From NCBI GenBank assembly GCA_016871775.1, contig VHCI01000024.1, forward strand, positions 1-34,474: 34,474 nucleotides of DNA, read 5' to 3'. This document shows positions 29,412 to 34,474 of the stretch, piece by piece; position 1 is the stretch's first letter; every line of letters starts with the position of its first letter. The translations under genes were made by a program, and so were the position numbers. Source of the stretch: Verrucomicrobiota bacterium. Lineage in GTDB: Bacteria > Verrucomicrobiota > Verrucomicrobiia > Opitutales > Opitutaceae. Below the pieces are notes generated by a model. That model was given only the letters and a program-made list of their open reading frames with translations, was not told where the DNA came from and searched no databases.

Positions 29412-29705
29412 TCAGTTGGCCTCGGGGGTGCGCTTCTGGCGCGCGCCCTTCCGCGGGGCCACGGCGGCGTACTCGTCGCTCGCGAGGGCACCGTCCTGGT
29501 TCTTGTCCAGTTCCTTGAACCGGGTCTTGGCGGCGGCCGCGGACAGCGTGCCCTTCATCGCGGTGGCGAACTCCCGCGACGTCACCTTGCCGTCGCTGTT
29601 GGCGTCGGCGGTGGCGAATGGCGGCGGGGTGGGGGCGCTGGCGGCCGCGCGGACGGTGCCGGCGGCGAGCAGGAGGGCCAAGAGGGCGGGGAGCATCGGG
29701 ATCAT
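29412..29705 (-). CDS. Secreted EF-hand calcium-binding protein
   Basis: This 97-residue protein has a Sec signal peptide (MIPMLPALLALLLAAGTVRA) and two EF-hand loops. Loop one starts at Asp34 (DANSDGKVTSRE) and loop two at Asp67 (DKNQDGALASDE). Both carry acidic or Asn ligands at positions 1, 3 and 5 and Glu at position 12, so calcium binding is likely. A basic tail (RKGARQKR) follows. The ATG at 29705 was chosen for the clean signal peptide; in-frame ATGs at 29735 and 29795 would add polar residues before it. The role is unknown. It is divergent from the secreted rhodanese gene across 163 bases. Confidence 0.85.
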   Translation of the reverse strand: MIPMLPALLALLLAAGTVRAAASAPTPPPFATADANSDGKVTSREFATAMKGTLSAAAAKTRFKELDKNQDGALASDEYAAVAPRKGARQKRTPEAN

Positions 29706-29868
29706 CGGGTTATTTTCTCTTTCAGGTTTGGCCATCGGCCGGGATGGCCGGTTGGGCGGGACGGAGGCTGGGGGCCGCGGCCGGCTCGCCGCCATCCGCG
29801 CTTGTCCCGGAAATTGAGGTCATCGCGATCCGCTTGCGCGCCGGCGGCTTACCCCTAAGGTCCCTTCG

Positions 29869-30258
29869 ATGAAACTCGTAACCCTGCTCTGCTGCCTCCT
29901 CGGCCTCGCCGCCACGGCGTGGGCCGCTTCGTCCAAGGTCCCCGCCATTTCCCATGCGGACCTGTCCGCGGCCATCGCCGCCAAATCGGTCACGATCCTC
30001 GACGTGAACGGGACCAGATCCTTCAAGGAGGCCCGAATCCCCGGGGCGCTGGACTACGCCGCGCAGAAGGCCCAGCTGGCGGCGCTGCTGCCGAAGGACA
30101 AGAATGCGCTGGTCGTGGCGTACTGCGGGAATGAGCGGTGCTCTGCCTACCTCTCGGCGGCGACCGCCGCGCAGCAGTTGGGGTACACGAACGTGCGCCA
30201 TTACGCGCCGGGCATCGACGGTTGGAAGCAGAGCGGCTCGAAGCTGGACCGCGGCTGA
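29869..30258 (+). CDS. Periplasmic rhodanese-like protein
   Basis: This 129-residue protein has a signal peptide (MKLVTLLCCLLGLAATAWA) and a single rhodanese domain. The catalytic loop is VVAYCGNERCSAY, with Cys86 as the expected active-site cysteine and Cys91 five residues on. The CDC25-type features LDVNGTRSFKEARIPGA and NVRHYAPGIDGWK frame it. The usual Arg and His of LDVR...GHIPGA are Asn and Arg here, so activity may be altered. It could handle sulfane sulfur or thiols in the periplasm. It is closed off from the downstream operon by a terminator-like hairpin. Confidence 0.88.
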   Translation: MKLVTLLCCLLGLAATAWAASSKVPAISHADLSAAIAAKSVTILDVNGTRSFKEARIPGALDYAAQKAQLAALLPKDKNALVVAYCGNERCSAYLSAATAAQQLGYTNVRHYAPGIDGWKQSGSKLDRG

Positions 30259-30279
30259 TCCCGCCACGGTTTTTTTCCC

Positions 30280-30311
30280 GGGCGGTCTCTCTGCGGGGGG
30301 CCGCCCTTTTT
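30280..30311 (+). terminator. Intrinsic terminator after the rhodanese gene
   Basis: GGGCGG (30280-30285) can pair with CCGCCC (30301-30306), or more locally GCGG with CCGC across a GGGG loop, followed by TTTTT (30307-30311). It lies 21 bases past the rhodanese stop and upstream of the glycolipid operon. Confidence 0.6.
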
Positions 30312-30321
30312 GTTGTCCACG

Positions 30322-30350
30322 TTGGCGGCGCATCTTCGCGCAATTGTAAC
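30322..30350 (+). promoter_or_regulatory. Possible sigma70-type promoter of the glycolipid operon
   Basis: TTGGCG (30322-30327), a 17-base spacer and TGTAAC (30345-30350) each match four of six consensus bases. The pair sits between the terminator and the GTG start at 30403. I see no obvious Pho-box repeat (CTGTCAT type) in this 145-base gap. This is a weak prediction by eye. Confidence 0.3.
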
Positions 30351-30402
30351 CGCAGCGCCACGGTTTCGCGACACGGGGTCCTCACGTTCGCGTCGCGCAA
30401 TC

Positions 30403-31557
30403 GTGAATCTCGCCCTCGTCACCGAAACCTTTCCGCCGGAGGTTAATGGCGTCGCGATGACGTTCGGGGTGATCGCGCGGGAGCTGGGCCGGCGGGGTCA
30501 CGGGTTGACGGTGTACCGGCCGCGCCGGGCCGATCTCGCCCCGTTGCCCGCGTCGTCCGACTACGCGGTGGTTCCCCTCCCGGGCTTCGCGGTTCCGGGC
30601 TACCCGCTGATCCGGCTCGGGCTGCCCGCGGGCGGCCGGCTGCGCGCCGCGTGGACGCGTGCCCGACCTGATCTGGTGCACGTCGCCACCGAGGGCCCCC
30701 TCGGCGCCTCGGCGGTGGCGGCGGCCCGCTCGCTTGGCATCCCGGTGACCTCGAGTTTCCACACCAACTTCCACGCCTACACCCGCCATTACGGCGCCGG
30801 CCCGCTCCGGGGTCTCGTGCTCGCGTGGCTCCGGCGACTGCACAACCGCACCCGCCGGACCTTCGCGCCGACCCGCGAGCTGATCGCGGAGCTGGGCGGC
30901 GCCGGTTTCCGCGACCTGGCGCTGATGTCGCGCGGCGTCGACACGCTCTGCTTCCACCCGCTGCGGCGGTCCGCGGACCTGCGCCGCGCCTGGAGGGCGG
31001 ACGACGAGCATCCCGTCGTGCTCCACGTCGGCCGGATGGCGCCGGAGAAGGACTACGACCTCCTCTTCCGCTGCTACGCCGCGATGCGCGCGGTCAATCC
31101 GGGATTGCGCTTCGTGCTGGCGGGGGAAGGCCCCCTGCGCGCGGGGCTGGAGCGGGCGCATCCCGAGTGCCACTTCGCGGGCTTCCTCTCCCGGCCGGAG
31201 ATCGGCGCCTACTACGCCTCCGCCGACATCTACATCCACGCGAGCCGCACGGAGACCTTCGGCAACGTGCTCACCGAGGCGATGGCCAGCGGGCTCGCCG
31301 TGGCGGGCTTCGACTACGCGGCCGCGCGGCAGTTCGCCCGGCACGGCGAGAGCGGACTGCTGGCCCCGTTGGACGCCCCGGAGGCCCTGGTCGCGGCGGC
31401 TGAGCTGCTGGCCGGGGATCCCTTCCTCCGCGCGCAACTGGGCCGGGCGGCCCGCCGTGCGGTGGATGAACACTCCTGGGAGCGGGTGATCGGGGATTTT
31501 GAGCGGGACCTGCTGCAGGCCGCGGGCCCGCTGCCCGCGGGGGGAGGTGCGGGATGA
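30403..31557 (+). CDS. GT4-family glycosyltransferase (first gene of glycolipid operon)
   Basis: This 384-residue GT-B glycosyltransferase has the N-terminal acceptor fold NLALVTETFPPEVNGVA and the SSFHTNFHAYTRHYG segment. The C-terminal donor-binding domain has LHVGRMAPEKDYDLL and an EX7E-type motif in ETFGNVLTEAMASG. This is the subgroup often annotated as alpha-mannosyl- or alpha-glycosyl-diacylglycerol transferases (MgtA-like), and the donor sugar cannot be told. GTG at 30403 is preferred because homology begins at once; an in-frame ATG at 30310 would start inside the terminator. Its TGA overlaps the next ATG (ATGA at 31554), so the operon is translationally coupled. Confidence 0.9.
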   Translation: MNLALVTETFPPEVNGVAMTFGVIARELGRRGHGLTVYRPRRADLAPLPASSDYAVVPLPGFAVPGYPLIRLGLPAGGRLRAAWTRARPDLVHVATEGPLGASAVAAARSLGIPVTSSFHTNFHAYTRHYGAGPLRGLVLAWLRRLHNRTRRTFAPTRELIAELGGAGFRDLALMSRGVDTLCFHPLRRSADLRRAWRADDEHPVVLHVGRMAPEKDYDLLFRCYAAMRAVNPGLRFVLAGEGPLRAGLERAHPECHFAGFLSRPEIGAYYASADIYIHASRTETFGNVLTEAMASGLAVAGFDYAAARQFARHGESGLLAPLDAPEALVAAAELLAGDPFLRAQLGRAARRAVDEHSWERVIGDFERDLLQAAGPLPAGGGAG

Positions 31558-32690
31558 ACCGGAGGCTGCTGATACTCACGGCGGGCTTTGGCGAAGGTCA
31601 CAATGCCGCGGCCCGGGCCTTAGCCCAGACGTGGGACGAGCGGGAGGGGGAAGGGGCGGCGGTGGTGGCCGATCCCTTCGCCGAGGCCCATCCCGCGAGC
31701 AACACCTTCCTGCGTTGGGCCTACCTGGGCGCGATCAACCGGCTACCCTGGGCGTGGCGGGCGCTCTACGGCTGGATGGACCGGTCCCGGCTGCTGCCGC
31801 GGCTGCTCGGCCGGCTTCCTGGGGACACCCAGTCGATGATTCGACTGCTCGAACGCCACCGGCCCCTCGCCGTCGTCTCCACGTTTCCCGGGCACAACTT
31901 CACGCTCCGCGAGATCGGCCGGCGCGGCGGCGCAGTGCCCCCACGTTTCACGGTGGTGACCGACTCCATCAGCCTAAATTCACTCTGGTGGACCGGTGAC
32001 TCCGCCGCGTGGTTCGTGCCCAACGAGGACTCAGCCGCCGTGCTGCGGACGGCCGGGGTTGACCGCGGGCGCATCGATGTGACCGGTTTCCCCGTACCCC
32101 CGGTCTTCGCTCGCCTCGGCGGCACCGTCGCCCCGCCGGCGTTGTCCGGGGGAAATCGGCCCCGGATCCTAGTGATGATCCATTCCGGCCGGCGTGGGGC
32201 CGAGGGCACGGCGCGGCTGCTGCTCCGGGAGTTGGGCTGGGATCTCACCTTTGCGGTGGGGCGCGACGAGGGCCTCCGCCGCCGGCTCACGGCGCTGGCG
32301 GCGGATCGTACTGGCGTCACGGTGCTGGGTTGGACGCGCGAGATCCCGCGGTTGCTCCTGACGCACCACGTGGTGGTGAGCAAGGCGGGCGGGGCCACGA
32401 CGCAGGAGGCGCTCGCCGCGGGCTGCCCGATGATCGTCAGCCAGATCGTGCCCGGGCAGGAGGAGGGCAACTACGAGTTGCTGCGCCGCCACGGGATCGG
32501 AACCTTGGCGACGGAACCGACCGCGTTGGTGGCGGCTTTGCGGGAGGCCTTTGCCCGTGACGGAGAGGGTTGGGCGCAGTGGCGGGCGGGGGTGGCGGGG
32601 CTGCGCCGTCCCCACGCCGCAGCGGAAATTCTGGATCGGGTGGAGGCGCGCGTCCGCGGGGAGCAGGACGTGGTGGGGGCAGCCCGATGA
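31554..32690 (+). CDS. MGDG-synthase/UgtP-like GT28 glycosyltransferase
   Basis: This 378-residue protein matches the monogalactosyldiacylglycerol synthase / processive diacylglycerol glucosyltransferase family related to MurG. The diagnostic N-terminal loop is GFGEGHNAAARAL (residues 11-23). The C-terminal donor site reads VVSKAGGATTQEALAAGCP and is followed by PGQEEGNYELL. Such enzymes add a hexose from a UDP-sugar to diacylglycerol at the inner membrane face. The ATG overlaps the preceding stop, and the TGA overlaps the next ATG at 32687. Placed next to a GT4 enzyme, a lipid kinase and a phosphoesterase, it points to membrane glycolipid synthesis. Confidence 0.9.
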   Translation: MNRRLLILTAGFGEGHNAAARALAQTWDEREGEGAAVVADPFAEAHPASNTFLRWAYLGAINRLPWAWRALYGWMDRSRLLPRLLGRLPGDTQSMIRLLERHRPLAVVSTFPGHNFTLREIGRRGGAVPPRFTVVTDSISLNSLWWTGDSAAWFVPNEDSAAVLRTAGVDRGRIDVTGFPVPPVFARLGGTVAPPALSGGNRPRILVMIHSGRRGAEGTARLLLRELGWDLTFAVGRDEGLRRRLTALAADRTGVTVLGWTREIPRLLLTHHVVVSKAGGATTQEALAAGCPMIVSQIVPGQEEGNYELLRRHGIGTLATEPTALVAALREAFARDGEGWAQWRAGVAGLRRPHAAAEILDRVEARVRGEQDVVGAAR

Positions 32691-33634
32691 GAACGGTCTT
32701 CATCCTCAACCCGCACGCCGGGCACAACCGGCGGCGTCCCGAGCTGCGGCAGCAGTTGCGGGAATTCGCCACCGCCTGTCCAAGCGAGGCGGTCGTGGAG
32801 GTGACGGAGGGTCCGGGGCACGCCCGGGAGCTGGCGACAGCGGCGGTGCAGGCCGGAGCGGAGGTCGTCGCGGCGGTCGGGGGCGACGGGACGATGAACG
32901 AGGTTGCGCAGGGCCTGCTGGGTGCGCCCGCGGCGCTGGCCCTCGTGCCCTGTGGCTCGGGCAACGGGTTGGCCCTGCACCTGCGGATCCCGCGGTCCCT
33001 CACTGGCGCGCTGCGGCTCGCGGCCGATCCGGACGCCGCCGTGCGTGAGATCGATTCCGGGGAGGTGGCGGGGCTGCCGTTCTTCAATGCGATGGGCATC
33101 GGCCTGGATGCGGAGATCAGCCGCCGCTTCAACCGCCTCACCCGCCGCGGCCTGCCCGCGTACCTCCGCGCGGGCTGGGGTGCCTGGCAGGAACGCCGGC
33201 CAGTGCAGTGCACGCTGGAGGTCGGGTCGGAGCGGCGCGCACTCTCGGCGCTGCTGGTCTCGGTGCTTAATTCCGACCAGTACGGCAACCACGCGCGCGT
33301 CGCGCCCGGGGCGGAGGTCGACGACGGGGAGCTCGATTTAGTGGCGGTGACCGCCACCGGTCTCCTCCGTGTGGCCCGGCTGATGCCACACCTTTTCCTG
33401 GGCTCGCTCGACTCCTCCGTCCCCGGCCTGCTGCGCCGTTCCGCGCGTCGCTTCGCGCTGGTGCGGCCCGCGCCCGGTCCGCTGCACACGGACGGCGAGG
33501 TGCATCCCGGCCCCGCGCGGCTCGAGGTCGTCATCCGCCCCCGCAGCCTGCGCGTGCTCGTGCCCGGCGTGCCCGGGCGCCTCGCCGCGCCCATCGACCA
33601 GGCGGCCCGCTCCTTCGCCCTGCTGATCCCATGA
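32687..33634 (+). CDS. Diacylglycerol-kinase-family (DagK/YegS-like) lipid kinase
   Basis: This 315-residue protein has the DAGK catalytic fold: FILNPHAGHN at the N-terminus, the nucleotide-binding GGDGTMNEVAQGL (Gly65 onward) and PCGSGNGLALHL (about 88-99). The C-terminal beta-sandwich contains NAMGIGLDAEI and LVSVLNSDQYGNH. It should phosphorylate diacylglycerol or a related lipid with ATP. The ATG at 32687 gives the canonical start; the long upstream in-frame extension would overlap the previous gene and is low-complexity. It is coupled by ATGA overlaps on both sides. Together with a glycolipid synthase it could return surplus diacylglycerol to phosphatidate. Confidence 0.93.
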   Translation: MRTVFILNPHAGHNRRRPELRQQLREFATACPSEAVVEVTEGPGHARELATAAVQAGAEVVAAVGGDGTMNEVAQGLLGAPAALALVPCGSGNGLALHLRIPRSLTGALRLAADPDAAVREIDSGEVAGLPFFNAMGIGLDAEISRRFNRLTRRGLPAYLRAGWGAWQERRPVQCTLEVGSERRALSALLVSVLNSDQYGNHARVAPGAEVDDGELDLVAVTATGLLRVARLMPHLFLGSLDSSVPGLLRRSARRFALVRPAPGPLHTDGEVHPGPARLEVVIRPRSLRVLVPGVPGRLAAPIDQAARSFALLIP

Positions 33635-34431
33635 AGCTCAACGTCCGCACCGTGATCCTCTCGGACCTGCACCTGGGCACGACCGACTCCAAGGTCGAGG
33701 AGGTGAATCATTTCCTGCGCCACATCCACTGCGCAAAGCTCATCCTCAACGGGGACATTATCGACGGCTGGCAGCTGCGCCGCGGCGGGCGCTGGACCAA
33801 GGCGCACACCCGCTTCGTGCGGATCGTCCTCAAGAAGCTGGAGAAGCGCGACACGCAGGTCATCTACCTGCGCGGCAACCACGACGATGTCCTCGCCTCC
33901 TTCCTGCCGCTGGAGTTCGAGGGGCTCGCCGTGGTCGAGGAGCACATCCACGAGGCCGCCGGCGGCCGCTACCTGGTCCTGCACGGGGACATCTTCGACA
34001 CAGTGACCAAGAATTTCGTCTTCCTGGCCCATTTGGGCGACTGGGGCTACAGCCTCCTGCTCGGCCTTAACCGCTTGTACAACCGCTGGCGCGCGTGGCG
34101 GGGGCTCGAGTACTGGTCGCTGAGCAAGGCCATCAAGGCGCGGGTGAAGGAGGCGGTGAACCACATCTCTAATTTTGAGCAGCACATCGCCCAGCTCGCG
34201 CGAGAGAGGGGGTGCCAGGGGGTGATGTGCGGCCACATCCACACCGCGGCGGACAAGCGCATCGGGGACATCCATTACCTCAATTCCGGCGACTGGGTGG
34301 AGTCGCTCACCGCGATCGTCGAGCACTGGGACGGCCGTTTCGAGCTGATGGACTTCGCCTCTTTCGTGCGGCGTTTCCCGCTGCCGGATCGTGACGGGGT
34401 CGAGCCCGGGGCGGAGCTCGCCGAGGCCTGA
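33631..34431 (+). CDS. LpxH-superfamily metallophosphoesterase resembling PlcP phospholipase C
   Basis: This 266-residue calcineurin-type phosphoesterase has all metal-binding blocks: SDLHLG (Asp12, His14), GDIIDGW (Asp42), RGNHDD (Asn83, His84), LHGDIFD (His118) and CGHIHT (His202, His204). A C-terminal LNSGDWVESLTAI follows. Family databases tend to label it UDP-2,3-diacylglucosamine diphosphatase. E. coli LpxH, however, has GNRDF and GHTHRP, whereas GNHDD, HGDxFD, GHIH and NSGDWVES are the pattern I recall for Sinorhizobium PlcP, which releases diacylglycerol from phospholipids under phosphate limitation. Both are possible. It is the last gene of the coupled operon, and the 43 bases left in the window contain only a possible inverted repeat. 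Confidence 0.88.
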   Translation: MKLNVRTVILSDLHLGTTDSKVEEVNHFLRHIHCAKLILNGDIIDGWQLRRGGRWTKAHTRFVRIVLKKLEKRDTQVIYLRGNHDDVLASFLPLEFEGLAVVEEHIHEAAGGRYLVLHGDIFDTVTKNFVFLAHLGDWGYSLLLGLNRLYNRWRAWRGLEYWSLSKAIKARVKEAVNHISNFEQHIAQLARERGCQGVMCGHIHTAADKRIGDIHYLNSGDWVESLTAIVEHWDGRFELMDFASFVRRFPLPDRDGVEPGAELAEA

Positions 34432-34474
34432 CCGGCCGGTCCGGGAGCGGGTGACAATTGCGTTACGGCCGGTT

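Follow-up and report, generated by a model that had tools for sequence, protein, structure and literature searches.

The stretch of DNA considered here, referred to throughout as the window, covers 34,474 bases from an uncultured Opitutaceae bacterium (phylum Verrucomicrobiota; contig VHCI01000024.1, assembly GCA_016871775.1), and its subject is an operon close to the right-hand end. Positions 30403-34431 are filled by four plus-strand open reading frames (ORFs), coding in order for a GT4 glycosyltransferase, a GT28 glycosyltransferase, a lipid kinase and a phosphoesterase (Table 1), and at all three junctions successive genes share a 4-base ATGA overlap. An earlier note on this DNA had described the same four genes and three identical overlaps, named their families and supposed a verrucomicrobial host; coordinates and junctions bear out the first of these points, domain matches (Glycos_transf_1/Glyco_transf_4, MGDG_synth, DAGK_cat with YegS_C, and Metallophos) the second, and the titles of the nearest named loci (Opitutaceae or Opitutae) the third. 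Probably, as will be argued, the operon represents phosphate-controlled lipid remodelling of the PlcP-Agt kind, to which a further glycolipid synthase and a diacylglycerol kinase have been added. Sequence comparison establishes the gene order and its conservation, the overlaps, the families of the products, the upstream repeats and the linkage to pst/pho genes in relatives, which are taken up in turn.

Table 1 Features of the operon and its immediate surroundings (window coordinates).
Feature	Position	Strand	Basis or remarks
GT4 glycosyltransferase, Agt2 type; proposed diacylglycerol glucuronosyl/glycosyltransferase	30403..31557	+	GTG start; Glycos_transf_1/Glyco_transf_4
GT28 glycosyltransferase, MGDG-synthase/UgtP-like; proposed second glycolipid synthase	31554..32690	+	PF06925, 54.2 bits (cut-off 25)
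YegS/BmrU/DgkB-type lipid kinase; proposed diacylglycerol kinase	32687..33634	+	DAGK_cat, YegS_C and TIGR00147 above cut-off
PlcP-type metallophosphoesterase; proposed phospholipase C releasing diacylglycerol	33631..34431	+	Metallophos match, tree, identities
Degenerate Pho-box-like 11-bp direct repeat, TTGTAAC-N4-GCGCCAC	30344..30361	+	Site at -59; p 0.010, matrix from other plcP loci
Second Pho-box-like repeat, CCGTAACGCAATTGTCAC	34451..34468	-	p 0.005, same matrix; between plcP and ppk1; same site in L114
Intrinsic-terminator-like hairpin	30280..30306	+	12-pair stem then TTTTTGTTGT; between rhodanese-like gene and operon

Conservation of the four-gene order

Gene order was compared over 80 named loci, which are the best of at least 555 confirmed relatives and so lean towards close ones; genes were assigned using bit limits set by the authors, and those lying past short contig ends are missed. 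The full order GT4-GT28-kinase-plcP occurs in 19 of the 80, with titles naming Opitutaceae, Opitutae or Opitutus in 16 cases and only Verrucomicrobia in the other three, so that the order reported in the earlier note is indeed a conserved one. The remaining arrangements include GT4-plcP (28/80), GT4-GT28-plcP (5/80), GT4-plcP-GT28 (4/80), plcP-GT28 (4/80), and, at one locus each, GT4-kinase-plcP and GT28-kinase-plcP, the latter cut by a contig end; altogether, a GT4 of the window's type lies within or adjoining the plcP operon in 57 of the named loci. The order GT4-GT28-plcP is that of Geminisphaera colitermitum TAV2, a cultured member of the Opitutaceae. On these counts GT4-plcP looks like the core of the system, while GT28 and the kinase look like additions made in several arrangements. 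The kinase gene stands immediately 5' of plcP in 26 of the 49 plcP-bearing genomes of the window's family. A further variant, seen in one genome of the order (L058:718-4807), has a tandem pair of GT4 genes ahead of the kinase and plcP (GT4-GT4-kinase-plcP).

The overlaps themselves are also conserved. The GT28/kinase junction is ATGA throughout the 19 further loci that have all four genes; in the same set the kinase/phosphoesterase junction is a 4-base overlap in 18 (15 ATGA, 3 GTGA; for the L133 phosphoesterase the nearest start chosen by the script is not the overlapping one), and the GT4/GT28 junction is a 4-base overlap in 13 (11 ATGA, 2 GTGA; unreadable in L130). Given this conservation, the overlaps exceed chance.

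Family placement of the four products

For the phosphoesterase there are two identities to be weighed: it could be a PlcP, or it could be the lipid A enzyme LpxH, in which case the operon would serve outer-membrane lipid synthesis. In favour of LpxH, it is this enzyme that provides the nearest solved structures both by profile and by fold, the NCBI LpxH models do match, if weakly (41.5 of 134 bits), and public records label such proteins UDP-2,3-diacylglucosamine diphosphatase. The fold match does not discriminate, however, and is uninformative because all of the solved chains matched by profile are LpxH and none is a PlcP; the predicted structure (mean pLDDT 78, poor at residues 124-136 and 169-178) supports the fold only. 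What decides the matter is a tree of 34 rows, in which 29 PlcP-type rows, the window's protein among them, are split at 100/99 from five LpxH rows (four proteobacterial, plus one distant LpxH-like row from Bacteroides), taken together with the motif GNHD, which is present in the window's protein, in all 19 other verrucomicrobial rows and, on the LpxH side, in the Bacteroides row, whereas the four proteobacterial LpxH sequences carry GNRD. In addition, the genome encodes an LpxI on another contig (C4; LpxI_C match, 131 bits), meaning that the phosphoesterase is not its sole candidate UDP-diacylglucosamine hydrolase. The LpxH identity, which the earlier note had named among the outcomes that would overturn its proposal, is thus very improbable and is rejected on tree, motif and LpxI match, despite the database names and structures.

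Direct comparisons agree with this placement. The phosphoesterase shows 48-49% identity to a Pseudomonas aeruginosa protein whose gene adjoins that of an Agt1-type glycosyltransferase, and 44% to a protein of Sinorhizobium meliloti encoded close to genes for a LuxR-type protein and an acyl-homoserine-lactone synthase. Both reference sequences come as copies from plasmid-collection records, and it is by their neighbouring genes that they are taken to be PA3219 and SMc00171, respectively. Seven residues of the window's protein (D12, H14, D42, N83, H118, H202 and H204), which in the calcineurin-like fold would bind the two metal ions, do not vary across the 32 rows compared. The two references are 46.6% identical to one another, in agreement with the 46% given for PA3219 and S. 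meliloti PlcP in PMC8528852, and PMC3596328 counts SMc00171 in the Pho regulon, calling it a phospholipase C. On sequence, the phosphoesterase is PlcP-like. In Parabacteroides (L088:4977-6898), the gene of a PlcP relative with 50% identity to that of the window precedes the gene of a glycosyltransferase lacking BLAST similarity to the GT4s compared, perhaps another PlcP partner.

The GT4 product shares 44% identity, across 380 residues, with the product of a P. aeruginosa gene that comes after cerN, a phospholipase C gene and plcR, and which, from this neighbourhood, is taken to be PA0842 (Agt2). A tree unites 20 verrucomicrobial GT4s, including that of the window, with Agt2 and one protein from Acinetobacter (99/98), the Agt1-type proteins falling elsewhere; grouping with Agt2 alone appears in just 38% of bootstrap trees. 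The E-x7-E motif (E284/E292) is invariant in 26 of 26 rows. In Escherichia coli, expression of Agt2 alone yielded glucuronosyl-diacylglycerol, and that of Agt1 monoglucosyl-diacylglycerol (PMC8528852), and the window's genome encodes a nucleotide-sugar dehydrogenase from the family responsible for UDP-glucuronate synthesis. By analogy, glucuronate is the most likely sugar for this GT4, membership of a clade being no proof of sugar specificity.

In the case of GT28, the only solved structures matched are those of processive diacylglycerol beta-glucosyltransferase (the nearest) and plant MGD1. The best model is the NCBIfam equivalog for diglucosyl-diacylglycerol synthase (NF010135), for which the score of 134 bits is below the cut-off of 500. 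The protein thus has its MGDG_synth domain in common with UgtP of Bacillus and with plant MGD1, while differing from them in its linkage to plcP and in this sub-cut-off equivalog score. Strong orthologues (at least 386 bits) are present in nine of the 132 genomes of the order, in all nine beside plcP or inside its operon, and the next match in the order, at 170 bits, lies away from plcP. Five of the nine belong to family f19 and show the arrangement plcP-GT28; in G019 and G128, the two of them in which the surroundings of plcP were scanned, no window-type GT4 turned up there. For this reason GT28 probably uses plcP-derived diacylglycerol directly in f19.

This has a bearing on the suggestion in the earlier note that the operon might make diglycosyl-diacylglycerols, as would be expected were GT4 and GT28 to act in series instead of producing monoglycosyl lipids in parallel. 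The idea of a series draws strength from the fact that the best model for GT28 is a diglucosyl-diacylglycerol synthase and its nearest structure a processive enzyme, as well as from the occurrence of GT4 and GT28 together in 28 of the 80 named loci. It is opposed by the four named plcP-GT28 loci, which are without a GT4 of at least 150 bits, by the five plcP-GT28 genomes of f19 (with no window-type GT4 near plcP in the two scanned), and by P. aeruginosa, which keeps Agt1 and Agt2 as parallel enzymes (PMC8528852). Because plcP-GT28 pairs exist, two parallel glycolipids are somewhat likelier than one diglycosyl lipid; the diglycosyl proposal survives as one of two options for GT28, with a chance that falls only a little short of even.

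The kinase has DAGK_cat and YegS_C in common with the soluble kinases YegS, BmrU and DgkB, and differs from them in belonging to a plcP operon. Its GGDGT motif is invariant in 9 of 9 rows, and a second copy, 41% identical, is found elsewhere in the window's genome. As judged from sequence, a role as a return arm to phosphatidate is plausible.

Phosphate genes and Pho-box-like repeats

The genome to which the window belongs contains a pst-phoU cluster. Its PstS and PhoU score above their NCBIfam cut-offs, its PhoB-like regulator reaches 248 bits against a cut-off of 296, and it further encodes two permeases, an ATPase and a histidine kinase. The genes of this cluster, together with the polyphosphate kinase 1 gene ppk1, served as queries against the flanks of 120 plcP loci, these being the 80 named loci and 40 of the 62 plcP-bearing genomes of the order (with some contigs counted twice, e.g. 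L139 and L047, which are one 152,958-base contig); as controls, 40 stretches of 13 kb were taken at hand-chosen positions from 20 of the same genomes. Homologues of some member of the query set occur at 37 of the 120 loci. More specifically, PstS/C/A/B or PhoU is encoded near plcP at 28 of 120 loci as against none of 40 controls (Fisher p 0.0002, kinship ignored), and PhoB and PhoR occur together at 13 of 120 as against one of 40; a match to PhoB or PhoR alone is weak evidence, because single matches occur in two further controls.

The clearest individual case is L170:432-7614, from a Verrucomicrobiia assembly, in which the order is pstC-pstA-pstB-GT4-plcP-phoU, with each pst/pho gene above its NCBIfam cut-off and a 4-base overlap between the GT4 and plcP ORFs. 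It is one of 11 loci of the 120 that have phoU 3' of plcP on the same strand. The same six-gene order is seen, by homology, in L154 and L163. Closer to hand, in a genome of the window's own genus (G013), the series of genes reads plcP, a porin gene, pstS, pstC, pstA, pstB (assigned by homology at 84%), phoU and the gene of a PhoB-like regulator (249 bits, cut-off 296). Counting only pstS rows of at least 290 bits, pstS lies no more than 15 kb from plcP in nine of the 28 family genomes that have both, on a separate contig in 16, and on the same contig at a distance of 0.17 to 4.8 Mb in three.

Following the failure of a scan of E. coli type, a spacing test was made and then a matrix trained on plcP loci, so that the repeat was sought after the first scan; p values are uncorrected across the several scans, and close relatives do not contribute independent upstream stretches. 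Pairs of TGTMAC with one mismatch allowed in each, tried at the 28 spacings from 6 to 33, peak at 11 bp, where they occur in 31 of 121 stretches upstream of plcP operons (two L178 sites in this count stem from a bad slice; three stretches were later dropped for a bad slice or for length). On the strand of the operon, 30 of 118 stretches carry an 11-bp pair, as against a mean of 1.3 for shuffled sequences (maximum 6 in 200 rounds) and 0.8 for random slices. A matrix was next built from 30 plcP loci outside the tested set, 13 further near relatives being excluded as well (L145 and L149, titled Opitutaceae, were kept). With it, 23 of the 27 Opitutaceae-type stretches contain a site at p < 0.05, and the window's own site lies at 30344-30361 (p 0.010). 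The 27 include the cut locus L157 though its true upstream region is missing; L136 has no usable upstream. The same matrix also scores the P. aeruginosa plcP and agt2 promoters (p 0.005 and 0.010), for both of which predicted Pho boxes are given in PMC8528852.

The earlier note had seen no Pho-box and suggested that control might differ from that of the known systems. Both statements need correcting: a weak, degenerate Pho-box-like repeat lies upstream, visible only by comparison with relatives, and the Pho-box-like repeats together with the pst/phoU linkage in relatives speak against a different control.

The proposed lipid cycle and the surroundings of the operon

PlcP-Agt pathways are known from several proteobacteria (PMC8231724, PMC8528852, PMC9239053, PMC4796936). 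What the present locus has in common with those of Sinorhizobium, Roseobacter, SAR11, Pseudomonas and Methylosinus is a PlcP with an adjacent GT4, a Pho-box-like promoter (degenerate in the window) and, in relatives, linkage to the Pho regulon; it differs in having an Agt2-type GT4 ahead of plcP, in the addition of GT28 and the kinase, in the 4-base overlaps and in its occurrence in Verrucomicrobiota. A further parallel is P. aeruginosa, in which one PlcP (PA3219) feeds two glycolipid synthases, Agt1 (PA3218) and Agt2 (PA0842), as is proposed here. There, however, the glycosyltransferases are in separate operons and both group with GT4 (PMC8528852), whereas here GT4, GT28 and a kinase share a single operon. 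Within the Verrucomicrobiota, one PlcP from a single-cell genome is mentioned in an ISME J. survey (PMC4796936), while a study of methanotrophs (PMC9239053) reports PlcP to be absent from verrucomicrobial methanotrophs. No description of the four-gene form was found in the literature searched, most subscription papers lying outside that search.

The scheme proposed for the operon, covering co-expression, PhoB binding, enzyme activities and sugars, would run as follows. When phosphate is scarce, PhoB would act on the upstream direct repeats and the four coupled genes would be made together. PlcP would then remove the head groups of phospholipids to leave diacylglycerol, from which the Agt2-type GT4 would form a sugar lipid, most likely the acidic glucuronate form, substituting for phosphatidylglycerol. 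The UgtP/MGD-like GT28 would provide the second glycolipid, either by glycosylating diacylglycerol with a hexose to yield a neutral glycolipid, or by adding a second sugar to the GT4 product. Finally, the lipid kinase could convert surplus diacylglycerol to phosphatidate, thereby limiting its build-up and permitting a return to phospholipids, and it is in this return that the "reversible switch" of the earlier note would consist.

Several observations weigh against this scheme. No reported activity for any verrucomicrobial member was found in the literature searched, and the verrucomicrobial phosphoesterases, joined by a Parabacteroides sequence, branch separately (99/96) next to the PlcPs of proteobacteria, for which reason a shift of substrate is possible. 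An ATP-spending kinase that rebuilds phosphatidate seems to fit poorly with phosphate saving. At 18 of the 80 named loci, a few of which may owe this to short flanks, plcP is accompanied by no GT4, GT28 or kinase scoring above the bit limits. The window's own pst cluster is on a different contig from plcP, and in G114 and G141, each assembled as one contig, megabases separate pstS from plcP. As regards the promoter, there is no sigma-70-type match in 30200-30460, the window's upstream stretch is outside the set with one-mismatch pairs in the 11-bp test, and a matrix made from E. coli boxes gives p 0.493 for the window and p < 0.05 in 7 of 24 stretches. Upstream stretches of pstS, intended as a positive control, reached p < 0.05 in only 2 of 29 cases, perhaps because pstS may often not be the first gene.

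Some of these same points would suit a constitutive operon for glycolipid and phospholipid turnover without any special tie to phosphate, for which the degenerate box of the window, the blank result with the E. coli-type matrix and the failed pstS control can all be cited. Against it stand the Pst/PhoU linkage at 28 of 120 loci as against 0 of 40 controls, the 11-bp pairs in 30 of 118 stretches as against a shuffle mean of 1.3, and the adjoining ppk1, and this explanation is considered unlikely, if distinctly less so than an LpxH identity. The interpretation given in the earlier note is thus borne out in part: its central proposal, namely that PlcP and a glycosyltransferase exchange phospholipids for glycolipids under phosphate stress, emerges as well supported. 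A fuller version must be put forward much more tentatively, and is on balance doubtful: that Opitutaceae have a PhoB-controlled, reversible lipid cycle encoded on one coupled transcript, with acidic and neutral glycolipid stores built by two unrelated glycosyltransferases and a dedicated return kinase, and that in some Verrucomicrobiota GT4-plcP has moved into a pst-phoU operon.

The occurrence of PlcP in 62 of the 132 genomes of the order (49 of 61 in the family), in part near pst/phoU, along with the larger operon in Opitutaceae, predicts phosphorus-sparing glycolipids in Verrucomicrobiota, while the added kinase opens to direct testing the way in which bacteria reverse such remodelling.

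Upstream of the operon lie genes for a small EF-hand protein (29412-29795, minus strand) and, as its direct neighbour, a rhodanese-like protein (29869-30258, plus strand). The region upstream of the operon contains three overlapping terminator-like sites, as against a mean of 0.4 in shuffled sequences. At the other end, the window stops 43 bases past the fourth gene, and contig C193 of the same genome overlaps its end (34207-34474; 268 bases, 1 mismatch) and continues, past plcP, with ppk1 and then a purple-acid-phosphatase-like gene on the opposite strand. In the nearest named relative (L114, an Opitutaceae metagenome assembly), whose phosphoesterase is 95% identical, the gene order is the same through ppk1. 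A general conservation of plcP-ppk1 was considered and rejected, as ppk1 is near plcP in just two of the 120 loci besides the window's genome, and on the same strand only in L114. A pairing resembling that in the window's genome is seen on a plasmid of the betaproteobacterium Mitsuaria (L085:4920-9703), where plcP-ppk1 is followed by a Ppx/GppA phosphatase gene on the other strand.

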